Assembly (NCBI GenBank): GCA_018052705.1 | Contig: JAGPMW010000010.1 | Coordinates: forward strand, 1-64,000 | Direction: 5' to 3' | Source of the DNA: Selenomonas sp. | Lineage (GTDB): Bacteria > Bacillota > Negativicutes > Selenomonadales > Selenomonadaceae | DNA: 64,000 nt | Shown here: positions 20,723 to 61,119 of the stretch, piece by piece | How the letters are laid out: the number at the start of each line of letters is the position of its first letter | Position numbering within the stretch: the first letter of the stretch is position 1 | Notes under the pieces: model-generated | Seen by the model: the letters and a program-made list of their open reading frames with translations, nothing else | Database searches by the model: none | What the model was told of the DNA's origin: nothing | Made by a program: the position numbers and the translations under genes

Positions 20723-20749
20723 AGAGGCAGACAAACGAATAAAACGATT

Positions 20750-20831
20750 CACTAGGGGAGCAGAAATGATCTGCTGAGAGACGGATGTCGACCCTTGGAA
20801 CCTGTTGGGGTAATACCTGCGTAGGGAAGTG
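20750..20831 (+). ncRNA. TPP (THI-box) riboswitch
   Basis: All hallmark segments of the thi-box occur in order: AGGGGAGC, CTGCTGAGAGA, GACCCTTGGAACCTG, TAATACCTGCGTAGGGAAG. The CACT/AGTG ends close the basal stem. It binds thiamine pyrophosphate and switches off thiC when thiamine is plentiful, through the hairpin that follows. Confidence 0.95.
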
Positions 20832-20843
20832 ACAAGCAAGATT

Positions 20844-20878
20844 GCCGTTCAGCTACGCTGGACGGCTTTATTTTTTTT
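20844..20878 (+). terminator. Riboswitch-controlled terminator
   Basis: GCCGTTCAGC and GCTGGACGGC form a 10-bp stem (one G-U pair) with a 3-nt loop, followed by TTTATTTTTTTT. It lies 12 nt after the aptamer and 24 nt before the thiC start codon. Confidence 0.9.
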
Positions 20879-42778: not shown

Positions 42779-42807
42779 TTGACAAACGCTCGTATAAGGA
42801 GTAGGAT
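42779..42807 (+). promoter_or_regulatory. Sigma-A promoter of the sulfate uptake/reduction operon
   Basis: TTGACA and TAGGAT are 17 nt apart. The start near 42814 lies about 10 nt before the conserved leader element. Confidence 0.75.
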
Positions 42808-42823
42808 GGTTTTATCGATTTAA

Positions 42824-42969
42824 AAAACATATACGAAAAGTATGATTAAACGGATTACCGCAGGTCATTCGACAAACGAAAGCCTATGGATCGTGTTTCA
42901 TCAAAGCAGATCTCATCTGAGCCCACAGGGGCGGAGAGATGCTTGGTGGAGTGCGGCCATAGGCTTTTT
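42824..42969 (+). ncRNA. Conserved leader element 1 with terminator (candidate sulfur-responsive attenuator or riboswitch)
   Basis: The first 62 nt (42824-42885) match element 2 (51568-51629) at 55 positions without gaps. Predicted pieces are hairpin 42828-42844, hairpin CGG-atta-CCG (42851-42860), and hairpin AGGU-ca-UUCG-acaaa-CGAA-a-GCCU (42862-42885). The last overlaps the 5' arm of a terminator, AAAGCCTATGG (42879-42889) with CCATAGGCTTT (42957-42967) and T5. The two structures exclude each other. The interior 42890-42956 is not similar to that of element 2. It does not fit SAM-I, T-box, TPP, cobalamin or c-di-GMP consensus as I know them. Function is inferred. Confidence 0.7.
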
Positions 42970-43024
42970 GGTATGTGTGGTTTGATCGGAGAAATGGAAA
43001 GCATTATGGATGGGAGTGACGATA

Positions 43025-44062
43025 ATGAACAAGAAAAAGGCAGTTGGTCTGTTACTAGGAACGTTGTTGGCAATGGGGATGCTGGCGGGATGCGGCAGTG
43101 AGGATCAGTCGGCTGATAGTGACAGCGGAGCAGCAAAGGAATTCCTGAATGTCTCGTATGATCCGACGCGTGAGCTGTATGCTGAGTTCAATGAGAAGTT
43201 CAAGCCGGAGTGGAAGGGGCAATCCGGCGAGGACATCACGTTCTCCCAGTCGCATGGCGGTTCGGGCAAGCAGGCACGTTCGGTTGAGGAAGGGCTGGAG
43301 GCGGATGTGGTGACGCTGGCATTGGCTTATGATGTGGATGAGATCAGTCAGGCCGGGCTCATTGATAAGGATTGGATCAAGAAATTCCCTAACAATTCGG
43401 CGCCGTATACGTCGACAATCGTATTTCTGGTTCGCAAGGGCAATCCGAAACAGATCCATGACTGGAATGATCTGACGCGTGAGGATGTGCAGGTGGTTAC
43501 GCCGAATCCCAAGACGTCGGGCGGGGCGCGCTGGAATTATTTGGCGGCCTGTGCTTATGCTAGTGAGCAGTTCCATGGTGATGAGGGTCAGATTAAGGAT
43601 TTTATGAAGAAAATGTTCAGCCATGTTGTCGCTCTGGACTCTGGAGCCCGTGGCGCGACAACGTCCTTTGTGCAGCGTGGTCAGGGGGATGTACTGATTG
43701 CCTGGGAGAATGAGGCCTTGCTGTCGGTGAAGGATGACCCGGATAAATACGAGGTTGTGATTCCGTCGATCAGTATTCTGGCTGAGCCATCGGTGGCGGT
43801 TGTGGATGAAGTGGTTGACCGCAAGGGGACGCGCAAGCTGGCTGAGGCCTACATCAATTATCTCTATAGTGCGCAGGGGCAGGAGATTGCGGCCAAAAAT
43901 TTCTACCGGCCGCGCGATCCGGAGATTGCGGCTAAATATGCCAGTCAGTTCCCCGCTCTTAAGCTGGTGACAATCGATGATGCGTTTGGCGGCTGGGCTA
44001 AAGCGCAGAAGGTACATTTCGCGGATGGCGGATCATTTGACCAGATTTATGAGAAGCAATAA
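43025..44062 (+). CDS. sbp: Sulfate/thiosulfate ABC transporter substrate-binding lipoprotein
   Basis: A 345-residue binding protein. The lipoprotein signal ends in [10 protein letters not shown], so Cys becomes lipid-anchored. The mature part follows the Sbp/CysP family: [53 protein letters not shown] and [15 protein letters not shown], which surround the sulfate oxyanion. The ATG at 43025 follows a GGGAG site, better than the ATG at 43010. It is the first gene of sbp-cysTWA-aprAB-cysDN and stands 55 nt after the leader terminator. Confidence 0.94.
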
Positions 44063-44094
44063 GCAGGCAGTTTGAGAAAGAGAGGCTAATATTG

Positions 44095-44919
44095 ATGAGG
44101 GGGAACCGCAAGATCATCCCAGGGTATTCGTTTACGCTGGGTGTTACATTCTTTTATTTGTCGCTGATCCTGCTGATCCCTTTAGCGGCGTTTGTTCTGT
44201 ATGCGAGTGGTATGGGCTGGGCAAAATTTTGGGCTGAAATCGCTGATTTTCGGGTGTTTCATGCCTATGCCATCAGTTTCGGCTGTGCATTGGCAGCAGC
44301 TGTGATCAATGCGGTATTCGGTCTGCTGATTGCCTGGGTACTGGTCCGCTATGATTTTCCGGGCAAGCGTATTCTGGATGGGCTGATTGATTTGCCATTT
44401 GCGCTGCCCACGGCAGTGGCGGGTATTGCGCTCACGACGCTTTATGCGGAGAATGGCTGGCTCGGACGATACTTCTATGCCGCGGGTATTCCCTCAGCGT
44501 TTTCCGTGCTTGGTATCACGATTGCGTTGATCTTTGTTGGTATTCCGTTCGTGACCCGCAGTGTACAGCCTGTTCTGCGCGATCTGGACCCGCAGCTTGA
44601 GGAGGCTGCCCGCATGTTAGGCGCAGATGAGCGGCGTACATTCTGGTCGGTGATTTTTCCGGAACTGGTGCCGCCGCTGCTCACTGGTTTTGCGCTGGCT
44701 TTTGCCCGTGGCATTGGAGAGTATGGCAGTGTCGTATTTATTGCCGGTAATCTTCCCTATGCGACGGAGATTGCGCCGCTGCTGATCATGGCCAAGCTGG
44801 AGCAGTTCGACTATCAGGCGGCAGCAGCGATTGCTATCGTGCTGATGGGATTGTCTTTTGCAATCCTGCTGGGGATCAATGGCTATCAGCGATATCGGAT
44901 GAGGAAGATGGGGGTGTGA
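44095..44919 (+). CDS. cysT: Sulfate ABC transporter permease CysT
   Basis: A 274-residue inner-membrane permease with six hydrophobic segments and the ATPase-contacting EAA loop (LDPQLEEAARMLGADERRTFW). DLPFALPTAVAGIAL is typical of CysT/CysU. Start at the ATG at 44095, with a GAGAGG site upstream. It pairs with CysW, 3 nt downstream. Confidence 0.94.
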   Translation: MRGNRKIIPGYSFTLGVTFFYLSLILLIPLAAFVLYASGMGWAKFWAEIADFRVFHAYAISFGCALAAAVINAVFGLLIAWVLVRYDFPGKRILDGLIDLPFALPTAVAGIALTTLYAENGWLGRYFYAAGIPSAFSVLGITIALIFVGIPFVTRSVQPVLRDLDPQLEEAARMLGADERRTFWSVIFPELVPPLLTGFALAFARGIGEYGSVVFIAGNLPYATEIAPLLIMAKLEQFDYQAAAAIAIVLMGLSFAILLGINGYQRYRMRKMGV

Positions 44920-44922
44920 GGT

Positions 44923-45750
44923 ATGCGTAGAGCAAAACAGTCATGGCGCTGCTGGGTGATGATCAGTATGGCGGCAGCGTTTCTATTCGTCATGCTGGTT
45001 CTGCCCCTGCTGCTCGTGTCAATCGAGGCGCTGCGTAAGGGCTGGACGGCCTATATGGCGGCGCTGACGGAGCCTTTTGCCGTCAAGGCGTTATACCTTA
45101 CGCTTGAGGCGACGGTACTGGCGGTTGTACTCAATACGTTGTTTGGTCTGGCTTCGGCCTGGCTGCTCACGAAATATGATTTTCGTGGCAAGGCCTGGCT
45201 GGGGGCATTCATTGATCTGCCCTTTGCAATTTCGCCAGTGGTAGCCGGTCTGTTTTTTATTATGCTGTTTGGGCGGATGAGTCCGCTGCATCCCTTCCTG
45301 CAGGCTGAGCATATTGCGATTGTCTTTGCGGTGCCGGGCATTATACTGGCTACCATCTTCGTGACGCTCCCGTTTATTACCCGGGAGCTGATACCGGTGA
45401 TGGAGGCGCAGGGACGCAGTGAGGAGGAGGCAGCGGCAACGATGGGCGCTGGTGGCTGGACGATATTTCGCCGGGTGACACTCCCAAATATCCGCTGGGC
45501 GCTGCTGTACAGCGTTATCCTTTGTACGGCCAGAGCACTGGGCGAGTTTGGTGCAGTCTCAGTGGTGTCCGGACATATTCGGGGTAAAACAAATACTCTG
45601 CCGCTGCATATCGAGATCTTGTATAACGAATATAATTTTACGGCGGCTTTTGCCGTAGCGTCCATTCTCGTACTGCTGGCAGTTGCGATTTTGGTCGTAC
45701 GCAATCTGGTGGAATGGCAGGCGAAAAGGGGGAGTGAAAATGCCGATTGA
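44923..45750 (+). CDS. cysW: Sulfate ABC transporter permease CysW
   Basis: A 275-residue permease partner of CysT. Six membrane segments, the DLPFAISPVVAGLFF motif, FITRELIPVMEAQGRSEEEA as the coupling loop, and GEFGAVSVVSGHIRG are CysW traits. It overlaps cysA by 11 bp, so the two are probably translated together. Confidence 0.94.
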   Translation: MRRAKQSWRCWVMISMAAAFLFVMLVLPLLLVSIEALRKGWTAYMAALTEPFAVKALYLTLEATVLAVVLNTLFGLASAWLLTKYDFRGKAWLGAFIDLPFAISPVVAGLFFIMLFGRMSPLHPFLQAEHIAIVFAVPGIILATIFVTLPFITRELIPVMEAQGRSEEEAAATMGAGGWTIFRRVTLPNIRWALLYSVILCTARALGEFGAVSVVSGHIRGKTNTLPLHIEILYNEYNFTAAFAVASILVLLAVAILVVRNLVEWQAKRGSENAD

Positions 45751-46804
45751 AGTAGAGCTGAGGCAGATAGGAAAAATGTTTGGCAGCTTTCAGGCCGCAG
45801 ATGATGTCAATCTTCAGGTGGAAAAAGGTCAGCTGGTCGGACTGCTCGGCCCGTCAGGCAGTGGCAAGACAACAATCCTGCGCATGATCGCAGGACTAGA
45901 GACGCCGGATACAGGAGATATTCTGATTGGCGGGCGCCGGGTCAATGATCTGCCACCGGGCAGGCGGGGCATTGGTTTTGTTTTTCAAAACTATGCTTTG
46001 TTCCGGCACATGACGGTTCGCGAGAATATTGCCTTTGGGTTGAAGGTGCAGCATTTGCCGGCAGCGAAGAGCCGGGAACGGGTCGATACGCTGATTGAGC
46101 TGATTGGGCTCAAGGAGTTCGGCAGCCGCTATCCGCTGCAGCTGTCGGGCGGCCAGCGTCAGCGGGTCGCGTTTGCCCGGGCGCTGGCACCGCAGCCGGA
46201 GCTGCTGCTGCTCGATGAACCGTTTGCGGCAATCGATGCGAAGGTTCGCAAGGAACTGCGCCAATGGCTGCGGCAGACGATTCATCAGCTGGGAATTACG
46301 AGTATTTTTGTGACGCATGATCAGGATGAGGCGGTAGAGGTGGCAGATTCTATTCTGATTACCAGCCGGGGGCGTATCGAGCAGAGCGGGACACCGGTCG
46401 AGATCTATCAGCATCCGCAGACACCATTTGTGGCCGATTTTATTGGCGAGGCCATACATGTGCCGGACTATACGATTTTTAAGGGATTTCAGAATGGTGA
46501 AGGGGATCACGAGGGAATCATACGGCCGGAGTTCCTGGAGGTCGGAGCTGATGAGAGTGAGATTCTCATGCCGCTGGCTGCGGAGCGCGGGATCGTCCGA
46601 GGGACTTATTTCCGGGGCAGCAATGTTCAGGTGGATATCGAGGTTTGCGGGCAGGTACTGCGGGCCTGGCGCAGTCTTGAGAAACGGCCTTTACAGGAGG
46701 GCGATGAGGTACTGGTCCTGATTCATCGGATCTACAGTTTTGCTCATGGGCAGACACAGATTATCGAAAATCAGGCCAAGCAGGATATTTCGGTGGTCAT
46801 TTGA
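45740..46804 (+). CDS. cysA: Sulfate ABC transporter ATP-binding protein
   Basis: A 354-residue ATPase with Walker A GPSGSGKTT, Q-loop VFQNYALF, signature LSGGQRQRVAFARAL, Walker B LLLLDEPFAAID and the switch His in FVTHDQDEA. A C-terminal regulatory/TOBE-like region follows. The ATG at 45740 follows AAGGGGGAG inside the cysW end. It powers sulfate import through CysTW. Confidence 0.95.
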   Translation: MPIEVELRQIGKMFGSFQAADDVNLQVEKGQLVGLLGPSGSGKTTILRMIAGLETPDTGDILIGGRRVNDLPPGRRGIGFVFQNYALFRHMTVRENIAFGLKVQHLPAAKSRERVDTLIELIGLKEFGSRYPLQLSGGQRQRVAFARALAPQPELLLLDEPFAAIDAKVRKELRQWLRQTIHQLGITSIFVTHDQDEAVEVADSILITSRGRIEQSGTPVEIYQHPQTPFVADFIGEAIHVPDYTIFKGFQNGEGDHEGIIRPEFLEVGADESEILMPLAAERGIVRGTYFRGSNVQVDIEVCGQVLRAWRSLEKRPLQEGDEVLVLIHRIYSFAHGQTQIIENQAKQDISVVI

Positions 46805-46820
46805 TGGGAAGGAGCAGGAT

Positions 46821-48512
46821 ATGCAGAAAATAGAGAAATCAGCCGATATCCTGATTATTGGCGGTGGTGCCGCGGGCTGTTTTGCTGCTATCACGTTGGC
46901 AGATAAGCATCCGGAGATGAGCGTGCTGCTGGTGGACAAGGCAAATATCCGGCGTAGTGGCTGTCTGGCGGCGGGAGTCAATGCACTCAATGCGTATATC
47001 GGGATTGGACATACGCCAGAGGACTATGTGGATTATGCGGCGGCTGATGCAGCCGGCATCGTGCGGGAGGACCTGCTGCTCTCGATGGCCAGAGGACTTA
47101 ATGCGGTTACGCGGCAGATGGAGCAGCTGGGCCTGGTCATCCTGAAAGATGAAGCTGGCAACTATGCCTCTCGTGGCTGGCGTAATATCAAGATTAATGG
47201 CGAGAATATCAAGCCGCTGCTGGCAGCGGCAGTTCGGCAGTCTCCATCGGTCGAGGTGGTCGAGCATGTGGCTGTGGTGGACTATCTGCAGGCCGCGGAT
47301 GGGAAGACGGTAACTGGTGCCTGGGGCATCAGTGTTCGGGAGGACACGGTGTATTTCCTGCAGGCGAAAGTGGTCATCTGTGCGACGGGCGGTGCATCGG
47401 GGCTTTATCGGCCAAACCACCCGGGCAGTGCCCGGCACACGATGTGGTATAGCCCGTTCAATACTGGAGCAGGTTATGCGATGGGACTGAGGGCCGGCGC
47501 AGAGATGACAACTTTTGAAATGCGGTTTATAGCCTTGCGCTGCAAGGATACGATAGCGCCGACGGGGACGCTGGCGCAGGGAGTCGGAGCGCAGCAGGTC
47601 AATGCACAGGGCAGGCATTATCAGGCCGCCTATGGCAATACAACGTCCGAGCGCCTCTATGCCGTGGTCAGCGAGAATCTGGCCGGGCGGGGTCCCTGCT
47701 ATTTGGAGACCCATGGGATTACGGCGGAGCAGCAGGCTTCGCTCGAGAAAGCCTATCTTAATATGGCGCCGGCGCAGACGATGCGCTGGCGGGAGACTGG
47801 GCTTGGGCCGTCAGCAGCCGATGTGGAGATTGAGGGGACGGAGCCTTATGTGGTCGGTGGGCATACGGCCAGTGGTTATTGGATCGACACTCGTCGGGCG
47901 ACGACACTGCCGGGGCTGTTTGCGGCCGGGGACGTGGCTGGTGGGTGTCCACAGAAATATGTGACCGGGGCTTTTGTTGAAGGGCGCATTGCAGCCGAAG
48001 CGGCAGCTGAGTATGCGGCTGGCAGGCCGCTGCCAGCCGCCGCTGCCGGCCAGTGGCAGCAGATCCTGGCCCGGGTCAGGCGGTTGCGCGCGGCCCCGAC
48101 GGGAGCAGTGTTATTTTCGACGGATGGGTTGGAGGAGGCCATGCAGCAGGTTATGGATGAGTATGCGGGTGGCATTGCAACGGCCTATCGCTACACGGAG
48201 CAGCAGCTTCGGCTGGGCCAGAAACATATCGCCCGGCTGATCCGGCTCAGCGAGAGCCTGCGGGCGAGGGATGGTTATGATCTTTTAAAGCTGTTTGAGC
48301 TGCAGGAGCGGCTGCTGGTCTGCCGCGTACTCATCGAACATCTGCTGGCCCGGCGTGAGACGCGCTGGCATAGTTTTGCGGAGAACATGGACCATCCGGG
48401 TCGCAGCCATGATTTCGAGAAATATGTCAATTCCCGGCTGGAACAGGGGGAGGTCCGGATTATCTTCCGCGATCTGGTGAAGCGAGGTGAGCACTATGAG
48501 CATCAGCATTGA
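46821..48512 (+). CDS. aprA: Adenylylsulfate reductase alpha subunit-like flavoprotein (AprA-like)
   Basis: A 563-residue FAD protein of the succinate dehydrogenase/fumarate reductase flavoprotein superfamily. It has a dinucleotide-binding start (ADILIIGGGAAGCFAAI), a second FAD contact (VVICATGGASGLYRPN) and the FAAGDVAGGCPQKYVTGAFVEG end loop. Its place between the sulfate importer and cysDN, with a two-cluster ferredoxin partner overlapping its 3' end, indicates APS reduction to sulfite plus AMP. Dissimilatory AprA is longer (about 620-660 residues). Catalytic residues were not checked by alignment. The ATG at 46821 follows GGGAAGGAG. Confidence 0.85.
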   Translation: MQKIEKSADILIIGGGAAGCFAAITLADKHPEMSVLLVDKANIRRSGCLAAGVNALNAYIGIGHTPEDYVDYAAADAAGIVREDLLLSMARGLNAVTRQMEQLGLVILKDEAGNYASRGWRNIKINGENIKPLLAAAVRQSPSVEVVEHVAVVDYLQAADGKTVTGAWGISVREDTVYFLQAKVVICATGGASGLYRPNHPGSARHTMWYSPFNTGAGYAMGLRAGAEMTTFEMRFIALRCKDTIAPTGTLAQGVGAQQVNAQGRHYQAAYGNTTSERLYAVVSENLAGRGPCYLETHGITAEQQASLEKAYLNMAPAQTMRWRETGLGPSAADVEIEGTEPYVVGGHTASGYWIDTRRATTLPGLFAAGDVAGGCPQKYVTGAFVEGRIAAEAAAEYAAGRPLPAAAAGQWQQILARVRRLRAAPTGAVLFSTDGLEEAMQQVMDEYAGGIATAYRYTEQQLRLGQKHIARLIRLSESLRARDGYDLLKLFELQERLLVCRVLIEHLLARRETRWHSFAENMDHPGRSHDFEKYVNSRLEQGEVRIIFRDLVKRGEHYEHQH

Positions 48513-48807
48513 TGCCACGCGATGCATCGGTTGTGGCCGCTGCGCCGAGGTCTGCCCCGGAAATCTGCTGCAGCTGTCAGCGGGACGGGCGGTCATCCGT
48601 GAAGCCCGGGACTGCTGGGGCTGCACGGCCTGCATCAAGTCGTGTTCCAAGGCGGCAATCAGCTATTATCTGGCAGCCAGTCTGGGCGGGGCTGGTGGCA
48701 GGCTATATGCAGATGATGGTCCACAGCAGCTGATCTGGCGGCTGGAACTGGCTGATGGATCATCGCAGCAGATCATTGTAAACAAGGCCGAGGCCAATCA
48801 ATATTGA
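48496..48807 (+). CDS. aprB: Adenylylsulfate reductase beta subunit-like ferredoxin (AprB-like)
   Basis: A 103-residue iron-sulfur protein with two [4Fe-4S] motifs, CIGCGRCAEVCP and CWGCTACIKSCSK, and a short C-terminal strand region. It would pass electrons to the FAD of the AprA-like subunit. The start codon lies 17 bp inside the aprA end, behind GAGGTG, so translation is coupled. It is shorter than dissimilatory AprB (about 150 residues), which also fits an assimilatory variant. Confidence 0.85.
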   Translation: MSISIDATRCIGCGRCAEVCPGNLLQLSAGRAVIREARDCWGCTACIKSCSKAAISYYLAASLGGAGGRLYADDGPQQLIWRLELADGSSQQIIVNKAEANQY

Positions 48808-48836
48808 TTGACGGTTGAAGATAGGAGAGAATGCAA

Positions 48837-49643
48837 ATGGCAATGGATCATCTGGACCAATTGGAAGCAGAAAGTATCTATATTCTGCGGGAAGCATATA
48901 AGAAACTGGGCAAGCTGGGAATGCTCTGGTCAATCGGCAAAGATTCGACGGTGCTGCTGTGGCTGGCCAAGAAGGCCTTTTATGGTCATGTGCCATTTCC
49001 GTTTATCCATGTGGATACAAAGCATAAGATTCCGGCAATGATCGAATATCGGGATCGTGTGGCCAAAGAGCTGGGACTCGATCTCATCGTCCATACCAAC
49101 TGGGAGGCTATCCATGCGGGCATGGGACCGGATAAAGGCCGGCTTGCCTGCTGCAAGGCGCTCAAGACCGATGGCCTGCGCCAGGTGGTAAAGGAGTATG
49201 GTTTTGACGGATTGATTGTTGGTGTGCGCCGGGATGAAGAAGGTTCCCGCTCCAAGGAACGGGTATTCAGTGAACGTACGCGGGATGACGGCTGGGACTA
49301 TACCAATCAGCCGCCAGAGCTTTGGGACCAGTTCAAGACGGATTTCCCGAAAGGCAATCATATTCGGGTTCATCCGATCCTGGCCTGGAGCGAGGTGGAT
49401 ATCTGGGAGTATATCCGCCGGGAACAGATTCCAATCATCGATTTATATTTTGCCAAGAATGGCAAGCGATATCGGAGCCTTGGCTGCGCCTGCTGTACAG
49501 GAAGAATCGATTCGGAGGCGGACACGCTCGATAAGATCATTGAGGAACTCAAGCATACGAAGACGGGCGAGCGGGCGGGCCGCAAGCAGGATCAGGAAGA
49601 TGCCTATGCGATGCAGAAACTGCGTAAAGAGGGGTATATGTAA
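48837..49643 (+). CDS. cysD: Sulfate adenylyltransferase subunit 2
   Basis: A 268-residue PAPS-reductase-fold ATP pyrophosphatase that makes APS from sulfate and ATP. It has the PP-loop-type [42 protein letters not shown] and the [11 protein letters not shown] end. The ATG at 48837 is chosen (9 nt from AGGAG). The ATG at 48831 would be too near the site. It shares one base with cysN. Confidence 0.96.
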
Positions 49644-51370
49644 TGGAACAGAATGCGAAAGAAGAAGGGCTGCGCGTCGTTGTGGTCGGTCATGTGGATC
49701 ATGGGAAATCAACCGTTATCGGCCGACTGCTTTATGATACGGAGTCATTGCCTGAAGGCGCGGTGGACAAGGTCCGGCGCATCGCCAAGGAGACGGGCAA
49801 GCCGTTCGAGTATGCGTATCTGCTGGATGCTTTTGAGGAAGAACAGAAGCAGGGCATCACGATTGACACGACGCAGATCCAGTTCGCGACCGACAAGCGG
49901 GAATATGTCATCATCGATGCCCCAGGTCATAAGGAATTTCTCAAGAACATGATCTCCGGTGCAGCAAATGCGAATGCGGCGCTGCTCATCGTCGATGCGC
50001 AGCAGGGCGTGCAGGAGCAGTCCCGCCGCCATGGCTACATGCTGAGTCTGCTGGGCATTCGTAAGGTTTATGTGGTGATCAATAAGATGGATCTGGTCAG
50101 CTGGTCGGAGATGGCATTCCATCAGGCAGCCAAAGATATGAAAGAATTTCTCGACGGACTTGGCGTTCATCCGCTGCGCTATATCCCCGTATCGGGATTT
50201 CTCGGCGACAATATTGCTACGCCATCGGTCAATATGCCCTGGTATGATGGCGCCACTTTACTGAACTCTCTGGACCTGTTGGAAGGAGAGGCCAGTATTG
50301 CGGATAAGGCGCTGCGGCTGCCGATACAGGATGTGTTCAAATTTGATGACCGTCGGATCATTGCTGGCCGGATCGAGTCAGGCCAGCTTCATGTGGGCGA
50401 TGAAATTGCAATCTATCCTTCTGGACGGCGAACGACGATTACTGAGATTGCGTGCTGGCAGGAACGGGATCGCCGGACCACGGCTGCTGCTGGGGAGTCG
50501 ACAGGAATCATTGTCAAAGATGAATTCTTCAATCAGCGTGGTGAAATTATCACGCATCCCAGTGATGAGCCGCCAGCAGTATCCAATCGTCTGCGTGCAT
50601 CGTTGTTCTGGATGGGGAAAGAACCGCTGCGGCTGAATAAGACTTACAAGCTCAAACTTGCTACGCAGGAAGTCGAGGCCGAGGTTGAAAGCATTGTCAA
50701 GACCATCGACGCATCGAATCTCGACAGCCGTGAGGGGGTCAGTGAGATCCAGCTTAACGATGTGGCCGAGGTAATTCTACGGCTGAAGGACACCATTGCG
50801 TTTGATGTGTTCCAATCCCATCAGGCTACGGGGCGTTTTGTACTGGTCGACGGTTATGATGTGGCTGGTGGAGGAATCGTGGTGACGGCAGAATCCGCGG
50901 CAGACACTCAGGATCCTGTATTTATCGGCGAACGGATAACAGCTCGGGGAGACCTGTTTGATGAGTTCTACTATGATGTGGAACGCTACACGATAACGAA
51001 GGTTGCGGCTGCCCCGCAGAGTACCTATCGGGTCGGCGATACGATCCCGACCAAAGGACTCAGCTTTGACTATCCGGCCGATTTCGACATACTGGTTTTG
51101 CGCGATCAGGCAGCTATAGCGGTCCGCCAGCGCCAGATTACGGCTATTTGCCCGCTGTCAGAATATCAATACAGCGGCTATCCGCTGATCAATGGGCGGG
51201 GCTTTGGTTTGAAGGTGCGGGATGAGGCTGCCCTTCAGCAGCTGCTCACAGAGTATTCTACTCTGGTCACTGGACAGGCAGCGCCCAAGCAAAGGGCAGA
51301 TTTTGCGAATCGCAATTATTTCCTGAACCAGTACCGGACATTGAAATTCTATTTTGATTATGTAATCTGA
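49643..51370 (+). CDS. cysN: Sulfate adenylyltransferase subunit 1 (GTPase) with an unusual C-terminal extension
   Basis: A 575-residue translation-factor-like GTPase that drives APS formation by CysD. G-motifs: [25 protein letters not shown] and NKMDLVSW. Domains II and III follow to about residue 450. E. coli CysN has 475 residues. CysNC fusions add an APS kinase with its own Walker A. Here the extra C-terminal 100 residues ([18 protein letters not shown], then [16 protein letters not shown]) contain no second P-loop, so this is not an APS kinase. Its role is unknown. Confidence 0.93.
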
Positions 51371-51522: not shown

Positions 51523-51551
51523 TTGACTTTCATGGGAGGCTGAGCTATGAT
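51523..51551 (+). promoter_or_regulatory. Sigma-A promoter of the sulfite-reduction/sulfur-carrier operon
   Basis: TTGACT and TATGAT have a 17-nt spacer. The start near 51558 lies about 10 nt before leader element 2, the same geometry as in the sulfate operon. Confidence 0.75.
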
Positions 51552-51567
51552 AAAAATATCAGTTTAT

Positions 51568-51730
51568 AAAACATATACAAATAATATGATTAAACGGAAT
51601 ACCGTAGGTCATTCGAAACACGAAAGCCTGCTGGAACCGCACGAGAGCCATGTAGAGCATCAGTTATCCGGCAGATTGCAGTCGGTGCTGGGCATCTGCT
51701 GGAGACGTCTGCGATTCCAGCAGGCTTTTT
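51568..51730 (+). ncRNA. Conserved leader element 2 with terminator (candidate sulfur-responsive attenuator or riboswitch)
   Basis: The second copy of the 62-nt element (51568-51629). It keeps the AGGU-ca-UUCG-N5-CGAA-a-GCCU hairpin. The terminator stem is AAAGCCTGCTGGAA (51623-51636) with TTCCAGCAGGCTTT (51715-51728), extended inward by CGCA/TGCG and followed by T5. Relative to copy 1 the stem bases after AAAGCCT differ on both arms so that pairing is kept (ATGG/CCAT against GCTGGAA/TTCCAGC). The interior also holds GCAGAT/ATCTGC. The terminator ends 27 nt before the ThiS-like gene. Confidence 0.7.
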
Positions 51731-51757: not shown

Positions 51758-51967
51758 ATGAAGGTAGCAGTGAATGGTGAACCGCTCGAGTTGGCAGGGG
51801 AAATCAACATCAAGGAACTATTAGTGGCTGCCAAGGCAGATCAGCCGGAATATGTGACGGTGCAGCTTAATGGAGAGTTCATTGATCATTCTGGATTTGA
51901 GGATACCTTTGTCAAAGAAGGCGATACGATAGAATTTCTGTATTTCATGGGAGGCGGTGCACGATGA
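51758..51967 (+). CDS. ThiS/HcyS-like sulfur carrier protein with a masked C-terminus
   Basis: A 69-residue ubiquitin-fold carrier (MKVAVNGEPLEL start, QLNGEFI, EGDTIEFLYFMGGG end). Mature carriers must end in Gly-Gly to be adenylated and thiocarboxylated. Here two more residues, Ala-Arg, follow GGG. In Wolinella succinogenes the carrier HcyS likewise ends with an extra Ala that the JAMM protease HcyD removes. The next genes encode an E1-like enzyme and a JAMM protease, so this is probably an HcyS-type carrier for cysteine, homocysteine or thiamine sulfur. The ATG follows GGAAGGAAAATAGGA, and the stop overlaps the next start. Confidence 0.88.
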   Translation: MKVAVNGEPLELAGEINIKELLVAAKADQPEYVTVQLNGEFIDHSGFEDTFVKEGDTIEFLYFMGGGAR

Positions 51968-52782
51968 GCAGTCTGACGAATGAGCAGCTGGAGCGGTATT
52001 CCCGCCATATCCTGTTGCAGCAGGTCGGTGGTAAAGGTCAGAAGAAACTGTTGCAGGGAAGGGTGCTGGTCATCGGTACAGGTGGTCTTGGTTCGCCGGC
52101 CGCGATGTATCTCGCTGCAGCCGGTGTCGGGAAGATTGGCCTGGTTGATTTTGATGTCGTGGACTTGTCTAATCTGCAGCGGCAGATCATTCATCAGACG
52201 AAGGATGTAGGGCGCCCGAAGATTGATTCCGGCCGGGAGACGATTGCGGCCATCAATCCTGATGTGCAGGTCCATACCTACAATGAGATGGTCCGTGCCA
52301 ACAATATTCGTGATATCATCCGCGATCAGGATTATGATTTCATTATTGATGGCACCGATAATTTTCCAGCCAAGTTTTTGATCAATGATGCCTGTGTTTT
52401 TGAGAAGAAGGCCTATTCTCATGCCGGGATTATTCGGTTTCAGGGGCAGACAATGACTTATGTGCCAGGGCAGGGGCCATGCTATCGCTGCGTATTTCCG
52501 ACGATGCCGCCGAAAGATGCTGTCCCGACCTGTCGTCAGGCTGGAGTGCTGGGCGTAATGGGCGGTGTGATTGGGACGCTGCAGGCAACGGAGGCCCTCA
52601 AGTATCTACTGGGCATTGGTGATCTGTTGACTGGCTATCTGCTCACCTATGATGCATTGACGATGACGTTCCGTAAGGTGAAGCTGCCGAAGAACCCGCA
52701 TTGCGCAGTCTGCGGTGATGAGCCGACGATAACCAGACTGATTGATTATGAGCAGCCGGCCTGTGATCTCGGAACGCATTGA
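51964..52782 (+). CDS. E1-like sulfur-carrier adenylyltransferase (ThiF/MoeB/HcyF family)
   Basis: A 272-residue ATP-dependent activating enzyme that adenylates the carrier's C-terminal glycine. It has the VLVIGTGGLGSPAA nucleotide loop, NLQRQIIHQ arginine segment, IIDGTDNFPAKFL, and structural zinc Cys pairs CYRC and CAVC. No rhodanese domain is fused, so sulfide or a TusA-type donor must supply sulfur. Its ATGA overlap with the carrier gene and the JAMM gene downstream point to the HcyF role rather than thiamine or molybdopterin synthesis. Confidence 0.92.
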   Translation: MSSLTNEQLERYSRHILLQQVGGKGQKKLLQGRVLVIGTGGLGSPAAMYLAAAGVGKIGLVDFDVVDLSNLQRQIIHQTKDVGRPKIDSGRETIAAINPDVQVHTYNEMVRANNIRDIIRDQDYDFIIDGTDNFPAKFLINDACVFEKKAYSHAGIIRFQGQTMTYVPGQGPCYRCVFPTMPPKDAVPTCRQAGVLGVMGGVIGTLQATEALKYLLGIGDLLTGYLLTYDALTMTFRKVKLPKNPHCAVCGDEPTITRLIDYEQPACDLGTH

Positions 52783-52796
52783 GATAGGGGGAAATG

Positions 52797-53213
52797 ATGC
52801 AGATTCGCTTGAAACGCGCCGATTATGAGGCGCTGATCATCCATGCCAGGCAGCAGGCGCCAGCTGAGGACTGTGGTCTGCTGGGGGGCAGAATACAGGA
52901 TGGGATAAAGATGGTAGAGAAGGTATACTATCTGACGAACACGGATCATAGTCCGGAACATTTTGCTATGGAACCGCAGGAGCAGTTTGCGGTGGTTCGC
53001 GAATTGCGGAGCCATGGCTGGATACTTTTGGGTAACTGGCATAGCCATCCGGCTACGCCGTCGCGTCCCAGTGAAGAGGATAAGCGGCTCGCGTTCGATC
53101 CGGCGGCCAGTTATCTGATCCTTTCGCTGGCGGCTGACCAGCCGGTATTGCATAGTTTTCAGGTGGCAAAGGATAAGACGGTGACGAAAGAAGCTTTGGA
53201 AATTATCGCATAA
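52797..53213 (+). CDS. JAMM/MPN+ zinc metalloprotease (HcyD/Mec+-like)
   Basis: A 138-residue single-domain JAMM protein. The complete active site is seen: Glu24 in AEDCGLL, His82 and His84 in NWHSHP, Ser92 and Asp95 in PSEED. Bacterial relatives (Mec+ in actinobacteria, HcyD in Wolinella) remove residues after Gly-Gly of a sulfur carrier or free the amino acid formed on it. The extra Ala-Arg on the carrier encoded upstream is the obvious substrate. The start is ATG 52797 (or the ATG three bases earlier). Confidence 0.9.
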   Translation: MQIRLKRADYEALIIHARQQAPAEDCGLLGGRIQDGIKMVEKVYYLTNTDHSPEHFAMEPQEQFAVVRELRSHGWILLGNWHSHPATPSRPSEEDKRLAFDPAASYLILSLAADQPVLHSFQVAKDKTVTKEALEIIA

Positions 53214-53278
53214 GAATCAGGGATATCGTAATAGAATGCAGCCTGGCAGGCTGCAGCTTAATTCAGGAGGGAATAACG

Positions 53279-54139
53279 ATGGCTGTGGATTATAAGGAAC
53301 TCAAGAAGGGCGGCTTTATGCGCCAGAAGCAGAAAGACAACTTTTCAATGCGGCTGAAATCAGTCGGTGGACACTTTACTGCTGCGCAATTGGCGACAGT
53401 CCAACAGGTAGCGGAGCAGTATGGCAAAGGCTATGTCCATCTGACCTCGCGGCAGGGCATTGAAATTCCGTTCATCCAGTTGGCAGATATTGACAATGTC
53501 AAGAAAACTTTGCTGGCTGGTGGTGTACAGGTAGGAGTCTGTGGCCCGCGGGTGCGTACAATCACGGCCTGTCAGGGCAATGCAGTCTGTCCGTCGGGGC
53601 TTATCGATACCGCGAAGCTGGCCAATGAATTTGATAAGCGCTATGGCGGGCGGGAACTGCCACATAAATTTAAGTTCGGTTTCACCGGCTGCCATAACAA
53701 CTGCCTTAAGAGCGAGGAAAACGATCTGGGAATTAAGGGCGGTACACAGCCGGACTGGCAGGCCTCTGCCTGCACATACTGTGGTGTTTGTCAGGCAGTC
53801 TGCCCGGAAAAGGCGATTATCGTGGATAAAGCAGCACAGACCGTTCAGCTCGATCAGGATAAGTGTGTATACTGTGGCAAATGCATTAAGAGCTGTCCGA
53901 CGGATGCATGGACTGGTCAGAACGGATTCGTGCTGTCTTTCGGTGGGCTTTATGGCAATCGTATCGCTGTTGGCCGGCATTTCCTGCCGATCATCTTTGA
54001 TGAGGCCAAGGTTTATGAAATTGTTGATGTGACACTGGCATTTTTCGAAAAAAATGCAAAGCCGAGTGAGCGCTTTGGCAACTGTCTCGATCGCGTGGGC
54101 TGGGATAAGTTCCAGCAGGAAGTGGAGGCTGTATTATGA
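53279..54139 (+). CDS. Siroheme sulfite reductase, small ferredoxin-fused type
   Basis: A 286-residue protein of the nitrite/sulfite reductase family. The siroheme-[4Fe-4S] ligands appear as C-x5-C (Cys98, Cys104) and C-x3-C (Cys138, Cys142). Two ferredoxin clusters are inserted after them (CTYCGVCQAVCP from 165, CVYCGKCIKSCP from 196). The size and plan resemble AsrC and low-molecular-weight anaerobic sulfite reductases rather than CysI (about 570 residues). It would reduce sulfite from the AprAB reaction to sulfide for loading on the carrier. An AGGAGGG site precedes the ATG. Confidence 0.9.
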   Translation: MAVDYKELKKGGFMRQKQKDNFSMRLKSVGGHFTAAQLATVQQVAEQYGKGYVHLTSRQGIEIPFIQLADIDNVKKTLLAGGVQVGVCGPRVRTITACQGNAVCPSGLIDTAKLANEFDKRYGGRELPHKFKFGFTGCHNNCLKSEENDLGIKGGTQPDWQASACTYCGVCQAVCPEKAIIVDKAAQTVQLDQDKCVYCGKCIKSCPTDAWTGQNGFVLSFGGLYGNRIAVGRHFLPIIFDEAKVYEIVDVTLAFFEKNAKPSERFGNCLDRVGWDKFQQEVEAVL

Positions 54140-54387
54140 GCCGCAAACCTGATGATACGCTGGACATCACTGATGTAGTATGCCCGATGACGTTTGTGAA
54201 GACAAAGATGAGTCTGGAGGATATGGAAGACGGACAAGTGCTGGCTGTTCATCTCAATGATGGTGAACCCATTCAGAATGTACCGCGCAGTCTTAAGGAT
54301 GAGGGGCATAAGGTTCTGTCTGTCAATCAAAATACTGACGGCACCTATGATCTGTTGGTCGAAAAGAACGGGCTTAGTGCATCATGA
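54136..54387 (+). CDS. TusA-family sulfur-transfer protein
   Basis: An 83-residue protein with the TusA motif DVVCPMTFVKTK, whose Cys carries persulfide sulfur, and the usual VLAVHLNDGEP strand. It overlaps the sulfite reductase gene by 4 bp. It could take sulfide or persulfide from the reductase, or hand it to the carrier adenylate. The partner is inferred from position. Confidence 0.9.
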   Translation: MSRKPDDTLDITDVVCPMTFVKTKMSLEDMEDGQVLAVHLNDGEPIQNVPRSLKDEGHKVLSVNQNTDGTYDLLVEKNGLSAS

Positions 54388-59980: not shown

Positions 59981-60004
59981 GGAATAAATATGAGTAAAGC
60001 ATAC

Positions 60005-60033
60005 TTGACATATATGAAAATATGATGTAATAT
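60005..60033 (+). promoter_or_regulatory. Sigma-A promoter of the URO-D/ABC transporter operon
   Basis: TTGACA and TAATAT with a 17-nt spacer. A CATAC-N7-GTATG inverted repeat lies between the predicted start and the first gene and could be an operator. Confidence 0.75.
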
Positions 60034-60096
60034 AGTGCCATCATCGAATTTAAGTAAACATACATATTAAGTATGACATACGTGGGAGGAATTATA

Positions 60097-61119
60097 ATGG
60101 CACAAAATGATAAATGGCAAAACAGGAAACAACTGGTATTAGACGCTATGGATAATAAGCCGGTATCACGGGTACCATCCGGATTCTGGTTTCATTTTTT
60201 GGACGATGAGATCCACGCTGATGCGTTTCAGCAGCCATCGCTGACAGAGCAGGTATTGGCTGGAGAAAAGCATTATATAGAAAAATTTCAGCCTGATTTT
60301 GTGAAGATCATGACAGATGGATTTTTCCCTTATCGCAATCCGGCACTCGAGAGCGCGGTATCTGTTCAGGATTTGGCCGATATACGTCCCCTGCCTGCAG
60401 ATGATCCATGGTTCACCCAGCAGATTGCTTATGCAAAGCAGATCACCAGCCAGTATGGAGATGAAGCGGCAACCTTCTACAATATATTTTGTGCAGGTAC
60501 GACGCTGAAGTTCATGCAGCCGGGGCCCTTGGAAAATGGAGAAACCTTCCTGGTCAGACTGGTACAGGAAGATAAGCAGGCGTTGAAGAAGGCCTTTGAG
60601 GTTATTTCGAGCGATCTGGCACGGCTGGCAAGACGGATTATTACCGAAGGCGGTGTCACGGGTATTTATTTCAGTTTGCAGAATCTGATTGGTGTAGGGG
60701 TCGATCGTAAGGTATATGATGAAGTTTTTGCACCAGGCGAAAAACAGATACTTGCGGCAGCCAACAGTGTGAGTGATTATAATATTCTCCATATCTGCGG
60801 CTATGCAGGACATCACAATGATTTGAGCTGGTATACAGATTACGATGTAAAAACGATTAACTGGGCGGCAGTAGTCGAGAATGTATCCCTTGAAGAAGGA
60901 AAGGATCTGTTTGCCGGCCGGTCAGTACTGGGAGGCTTTGGCAATCTGGACAGTGCTGTGCTGTATCGTGGCAGCAAGCAGGAGATCCAGGCCGAAACCC
61001 GCCGTCTGCTCAAGAAGGCGGGCCGTACAGGCATTCTGCTTGGGGCAGACTGCACGGTTCCGCGGGATATCGATCGGCAGCATCTGGAATGGGTGCGTGA
61101 AGCGGCAGCTGAAGATTGA
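60097..61119 (+). CDS. Uroporphyrinogen decarboxylase (URO-D) family protein
   Basis: A 340-residue TIM-barrel protein of the URO-D superfamily (RVPSGFWFHF start, VKIMTDGFFPY, HICGYAGHHNDL, GGFGNLDSAVL and the GILLGADCTVP end). No heme genes are near. In anaerobes many members are methyltransferases (MtaA/CmuA-like) acting on corrinoid-bound methyl groups. It leads an operon with an amino-acid ABC transporter, so it may demethylate or otherwise process the imported compound, for example a methylated thiol. That is inference. The ATG at 60097 follows GGGAGGA. Confidence 0.82.
   Translation: MAQNDKWQNRKQLVLDAMDNKPVSRVPSGFWFHFLDDEIHADAFQQPSLTEQVLAGEKHYIEKFQPDFVKIMTDGFFPYRNPALESAVSVQDLADIRPLPADDPWFTQQIAYAKQITSQYGDEAATFYNIFCAGTTLKFMQPGPLENGETFLVRLVQEDKQALKKAFEVISSDLARLARRIITEGGVTGIYFSLQNLIGVGVDRKVYDEVFAPGEKQILAAANSVSDYNILHICGYAGHHNDLSWYTDYDVKTINWAAVVENVSLEEGKDLFAGRSVLGGFGNLDSAVLYRGSKQEIQAETRRLLKKAGRTGILLGADCTVPRDIDRQHLEWVREAAAED

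Follow-up and report, generated by a model that had tools for sequence, protein, structure and literature searches.

A candidate antiterminator hairpin in the leaders of sulfur genes in the Selenomonadaceae

Two sulfur operons of a Selenomonas sp. genome, both lying within the 64,000-nucleotide stretch of contig JAGPMW010000010.1 analysed here (the window), are preceded by leaders that share a hairpin of 24 nucleotides. Judged by comparison with its homologues, the hairpin represents a real, new and well-supported RNA family whose mechanism is of a known kind, and it most likely switches sulfur genes on and off throughout the Selenomonadaceae. We consider it probable that the hairpin is an antiterminator stabilised by a trans-acting factor, most likely an RNA-binding protein. 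On balance, we also lean slightly towards a wider picture, an RNA sulfur regulon of the Selenomonadaceae in which a hairpin of ∼24 nucleotides, read by a sulfur-sensing protein (perhaps YezD) or a metabolite, would control termination, and for some copies translation, of sulfate, cysteine and methionine genes. Note that the label “sulfur-responsive” comes solely from the gene context, from which we infer regulation by sulfur status.

Leaders of the two window operons

Positions 42824-42885 and 51568-51629 had been described in a first-pass annotation as two copies of a single 62-nucleotide RNA element. Their agreement at 55 of 62 positions with no gaps was confirmed (89% identity, E 3.9e-17), and the probability of so good an ungapped match by chance is about 5e-26 per offset pair. 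Each copy had been placed about 10 nucleotides after a predicted transcription start, which fits the promoters read from the sequence, and had been said to end inside the 5′ arm of an intrinsic terminator, which it does (Table 1). Also as described, the terminator stem bases past the shared AAAGCCU differ between the copies on both arms, and an alternative hairpin, AGGU-CA-UUCG-N5-CGAA-A-GCCU, can be drawn on the same GCCU in both. The protein identities of both operons, and of representative genes at other loci, were confirmed with Pfam and NCBIfam. The window also contains an ordinary TPP riboswitch (RF00059, positions 20744-20844).

Table 1. Features of the two leaders and their operons (positions in the window; s.d., standard deviations relative to shuffled sequences)
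Feature	Position	Strand	Basis
Sulfate operon promoter, TTGACA, 17-nt spacer, TAGGAT	42779..42807	+	consensus match read from sequence
Dyad AAACATATACGAAAAGTATGA, probable DNA operator of the sulfur regulon, copy 1	42825..42845	+	genome pattern scan
Putative antiterminator hairpin AGGU-CA-UUCG-ACAAA-CGAA-A-GCCU, copy 1	42862..42885	+	covariance model R2, 42.1 bits; covariation
Intrinsic terminator, GAAAGCCU common to hairpin copy 1, then U run	42878..42968	+	fold -56.6 kcal/mol, 6.0 s.d. below shuffles (z -6.0)
Operon 1: sulfate-binding protein, two permeases, CysA-like ATPase, FAD and ferredoxin proteins (APS reductase-like), CysD, CysN	43010..51370	+	ORFs, Pfam
thiS operon promoter, TTGACT, 17-nt spacer, TATGAT	51523..51551	+	consensus match read from sequence
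Dyad AAACATATACAAATAATATGA, probable DNA operator, copy 2	51569..51589	+	genome pattern scan
Putative antiterminator hairpin AGGU-CA-UUCG-AAACA-CGAA-A-GCCU, copy 2	51606..51629	+	covariance model R2, 38.5 bits
Intrinsic terminator, GAAAGCCU common to hairpin copy 2, then U run	51622..51729	+	fold -65.2 kcal/mol, 5.8 s.d. below shuffles (z -5.8)
Operon 2: ThiS, ThiF, JAB protease, sulfite reductase-like protein, TusA	51758..54387	+	Pfam

The claim of one 62-nucleotide RNA element did not survive, because its 5′ and 3′ ends occur separately and are found independently of each other. The first ∼21 nucleotides are operator-like, and the conserved RNA is confined to the last ∼25. The dyad in the 5′ part, AAACATAY-N8-TATGA, has exactly seven copies in the genome, which precede the sulfate operon, the thiS operon, yezD, metY, a symporter gene, a metN-like gene and a UroD-like gene; a copy with one mismatch lies upstream of cysK. 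(The symporter, metY, metN-like and cysK identities were obtained by reading translations.) The hairpin is present at only three of the seven exact sites, and among 75 hairpin leaders the dyad half-site occurs in 25 and is absent from 50. The hairpin can thus accompany the dyad or stand alone, and is an independent unit. Due to its position directly 3′ of the -10 box the dyad resembles a repressor site, and it is probably the DNA operator of a sulfur regulon. By its behaviour as a shared operator, rather than by motif comparison, it is like the CymR-type operators of Firmicutes sulfur regulons. The dyad thus stands at sulfur promoters that have no hairpin and the hairpin often stands without the dyad, so the long identity first noticed consists of two neighbouring modules, the operator and the RNA switch.

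Two other structures within the leaders were rejected. CATAC/GTATG does not behave as an RNA helix, since many homologues have lost or altered the second half without compensation, and exact copies precede sulfur genes that have no hairpin. A middle hairpin, CGG..CCG, is missing from three homologues (L013, L037 and L039). One dyad without a hairpin lies in the window itself at 60056-60076, with a near copy at 59997-60017, ahead of the UroD-like gene (60097-61119), which follows a sulfonate/nitrate-type ABC transporter. In Selenomonas genomes that lack the hairpin, a different repeated promoter sequence, TTGACATGATAGGTGTAATAGTGTAACAT, precedes yezD (L274, G099; similar in L275 and L276), and in G099 it also precedes a sulfate-binding gene (L274:2960-3060 and L274:5450-5620).

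Covariation, distribution and gene context of the hairpin

The family core derived from diverse copies is GGY-NA-UUCG-(3-5 nt)-CGAA-A-GCC. Across 37 sequences, 98% of cells are paired, and the count of double changes is 17, where shuffles give 3.2 and slid controls 0 to 5. Compensatory variants of UUCG/CGAA include UCUG/CAGA, UCCG/CGGA, UUAG/CUAA, UUUG/CAAA and UUCU/AGAA, and AGG/CCU also appears as GAG/CUC. For 22 further sequences outside model building, aligned by MAFFT without structure, 98.3% of cells are paired and 24 double changes were found versus 5.2 in shuffles; note that this set was retrieved with the model and leans towards structure. Hardly any variation is seen in the internal loop (N-A opposite A) or in the pairs that close it (G-C, U.G and U-A), so the sequence is conserved beyond the needs of pairing. 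On this comparative evidence, the 3′ part of the shared sequence is a genuine RNA hairpin. The 62 nucleotides could instead be a duplicated promoter-operator region conserved as DNA, and the 5′ part, a DNA-like operator at many sulfur promoters, would agree with that. Covariation of the 3′ part as RNA, including the three-way covariation described below, in many leaders that lack the operator refutes this account for the 3′ part and leaves it hardly any probability overall.

The first-pass annotation had suggested a covariance-model search and an Rfam scan. The former, in which the RNA model was used alone and gene context ignored, yielded many more homologues, with pairing kept by compensatory change, ahead of sulfur genes in the Selenomonadaceae. 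A DNA-only search matched 25 of 151 genomes of the family, covariance model R1 (built from 17 sequences) matched 32 of 189 genomes of the order, and the later core model R2 matched 50 of 380 genomes of the class, 46 of the 50 being Selenomonadaceae. The R1 search exposed a third copy in this genome (G000), on contig C27:2722-2784 (L165:2722-2784), before yezD. Outside the family, a phylum-wide R2 search gave few or chance-level matches, the weak ones being fewer than expected by chance. The weakest R2 matches (E > ∼0.001) include false ones with no sulfur context (L222, L254, L256, L257 and L268). A pattern scan of named genomes placed the family in Selenomonas and Mitsuokella; exact-pattern matches outside the Negativicutes lack a terminator, lie mostly within apparent coding sequence, and were judged to be chance. 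One genome of another family (G272) has two strong, near-identical hairpin-terminator copies (L218:3560-3587 and L219:2895-2922) with no sulfur gene downstream, one of which follows a truncated glutamate dehydrogenase-like frame.

In the Rfam 15 scan, neither window leader matched at the gathering score, and matches up to E 5 were of the chance kind, for example an alignment of the terminator with a plant miRNA family. The leaders of relatives likewise matched no family. The earlier statement that SAM riboswitch and T-box signatures are lacking here proved correct: RF00162 has a single match in this genome (C25:15151-15253), away from these loci, and none of the 14 RF00230 matches falls at 42824 or 51568 of contig C5. 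Searches of the open-access literature, and term searches within structured-RNA surveys, returned no mention of the motif, which is no proof of novelty.

A sulfur gene signature, or that of a linked gene, was found after 72 of 81 matches within 1.3 kb, with signatures assigned after the loci were seen and related genomes counted more than once. These comprised sulfate-binding protein (24), yezD (16), thiS (13), metN (5), sulfonate-type binding protein (3), esterase (3), metY (2), nifB-like (2), permease (2), cystine-type binding protein (1) and cysK (1). Because the genome search used the RNA alone, the association with sulfur genes was not built in. At two loci (L177:9741-9769 and L179:1255-1283) the hairpin precedes a NifB-like radical SAM gene directly 3′ of yezD. 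In genus g13, hairpins precede metN and metY; neither a SAM riboswitch nor an ANTAR protein was found in two genomes of this genus (G040 and G092), G040 is also without a T-box, and other family members differ in these respects.

Competition with the terminator and the proposed mechanism

By a permissive criterion, the GCC arm of the hairpin doubles in 76 of 81 matches as the 5′ arm of a second hairpin further downstream, which has a U run behind it. Since this arm serves both structures, hairpin and terminator are mutually exclusive, and the two exclusive folds proposed in the first pass are upheld by the sharing of the arm and by three-way covariation. The bases at the hairpin, shared and terminator positions are G/C/G in 61 cases, A/U/G in 6 and A/U/A in 4. 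A shared base of U instead of C is accompanied by A instead of G at the hairpin partner; the terminator partner is likewise A instead of G in 4 of 10, the others forming G.U. Terminator loops vary in sequence and length among copies. Predicted energies are mostly -3 to -7 kcal/mol for the antiterminator hairpin and mostly -15 to -58 kcal/mol for the terminator.

An overlapping terminator is lacking in three of the family's leaders, namely L165, L175 and the first of the copies in L266. In L165, GCCUGA can pair with the yezD ribosome site UCAGGAG, in a predicted structure that is weak; ribosome-site folds of the terminator-less copies were weak throughout and no better than shuffles. In a few copies of this type, among them the yezD copy of this genome, GCCU may control access to the ribosome-binding site instead. 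One leader (G020, L178:2648-2728) carries a tandem pair of hairpins before one terminator and an SsuA-like gene.

In the mechanism that we propose, the hairpin would form first, and the much stronger terminator would then displace it (the hairpin being weak, ∼-5 kcal/mol), so that the default state would be OFF. With a weak hairpin and a strong terminator, a helper should be needed for read-through. A trans-acting factor would recognise the invariant features of the hairpin, namely its A-rich apical loop and the 2x1 internal loop (N-A / A) with the neighbouring G-C, U.G and U-A, and once bound would stabilise the hairpin and allow RNA polymerase to read through when sulfur is short. This factor is most likely an RNA-binding protein that uses the hairpin much as LicT and SacY use theirs, but from a different protein family. 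The DNA operator at the start site would form a second, independent layer of control.

Attenuation by a leader peptide, or by tRNA sensing as in a T-box, was also considered. Both window copies contain an ATG-started frame (MIKRxTxGHSxxESL), and T-boxes occur commonly in genomes of this group. However, a one-base frame shift in close relatives (L030 and others) breaks the reading frame, no ribosome site or run of Cys or Met codons accompanies it, and no T-box match falls at either locus. The peptide is ruled out because its frame is not kept in relatives, and attenuation of either type is largely refuted and very improbable. Terminators in leaders can also be constitutive, and the hairpin could then belong to a passive attenuator with fixed read-through or be a stability element. 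A passive stem would have no need of internal-loop and stem sequence kept far beyond pairing, across genera and before different genes, and such an unregulated leader seems to us quite improbable.

The same architecture and comparative evidence would equally accommodate a metabolite riboswitch with a minimal aptamer, in which the internal loop would be the binding site for cysteine, O-acetylserine, homocysteine or sulfide and the bound metabolite would stabilise the hairpin. The conserved unpaired A residues are consistent with this, terminator and terminator-less platforms both fit, and the HMP-PP riboswitch is a precedent for a very small aptamer that competes with a terminator (PMC6478431). 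Against it, conservation is confined to ∼24 nucleotides and one stem, the apical loop is variable in length and sequence, the alignments show no second conserved strand or pseudoknot partner, and the distribution is mostly limited to one bacterial family. We regard a riboswitch of this kind as unlikely, if the least so of the alternatives. The small size, single stem and sequence-specific loops would favour a protein site over the known metabolite aptamers, and a protein is the more likely factor.

For the protein-bound antiterminator, several candidate readers were assessed. LicT-type CAT_RBD domains (PF03123) gave no match in this genome and many other hairpin-bearing genomes, and ANTAR proteins are absent from the hairpin-bearing G040 and G092; both types were ruled out as the binder because their genome distribution does not fit. 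Comparison of neighbourhoods revealed no dedicated regulator gene kept beside the loci; only structural sulfur genes and YezD recur. YezD (PF10055, DUF2292) is a recurrent neighbour and often the first gene; it is present in nearly all hairpin genomes, and also in many genomes without the hairpin. AlphaFold models of YezD (L165:2797-3150 and homologues) are confident and show two tandem alpha-beta-beta domains, for which Foldseek found no significant match in the PDB; the best VIA-align Z, 3.8, was not informative. A short basic stretch at the YezD N-terminus tends to occur in hairpin-bearing genomes and is missing in hairpin-less Selenomonas. As a pointer to hairpin binding, this feature of the protein sequence should be considered only a lead.

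Relation to known systems

The RAT sequences of the LicT/SacY/BglG systems are short imperfect hairpins with an asymmetric internal loop that overlap the 5′ arm of a terminator; termination is the default, and a single type of hairpin can serve several operons. The hairpin described here overlaps a terminator in the same manner, but differs in its consensus, in having no Rfam match, in the lack of a CAT_RBD protein in a genome with three copies, in preceding sulfur rather than sugar genes, and in that some copies have no terminator. ANTAR targets consist of two hairpins with hexanucleotide loops. These are protein-bound RNAs, and competition with a terminator is common to them and the present hairpin, which unlike them is single and has loops of 3-5 nucleotides, and whose hosts G040 and G092 have no ANTAR protein. 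SAM riboswitches (S-box) and T-boxes also regulate sulfur amino-acid genes of Firmicutes from the leader RNA; they are larger, unrelated structures found elsewhere in this genome.

The HMP-PP riboswitch (thiS motif) is very small, has a fold exclusive with the terminator, is ON when its own fold is stabilised, and occurs before thiS (PMC6478431, PMC6429828). The present hairpin is similarly tiny and terminator-exclusive, with some copies before thiS. The HMP-PP aptamer is, however, embedded in the terminator with a conserved loop and a possible pseudoknot, whereas here the terminator loops vary and it is the hairpin upstream that holds the conserved bases. The genes also differ, being those of sulfate, cysteine and methionine rather than thiamin, and no Rfam family matched here in the general scan, in which no thiS-motif model was singled out.

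These results add a well-supported new family of cis-regulatory RNA for a group of rumen, gut and oral bacteria in which few descriptions of sulfur control exist. The RNA is very small and is met repeatedly upstream of sulfate, cysteine and methionine genes, and in g13 it stands at metN and metY although both genomes tested are without a SAM riboswitch. Its effector would imply either antiterminator proteins of a new family or an aptamer of exceptionally small size.
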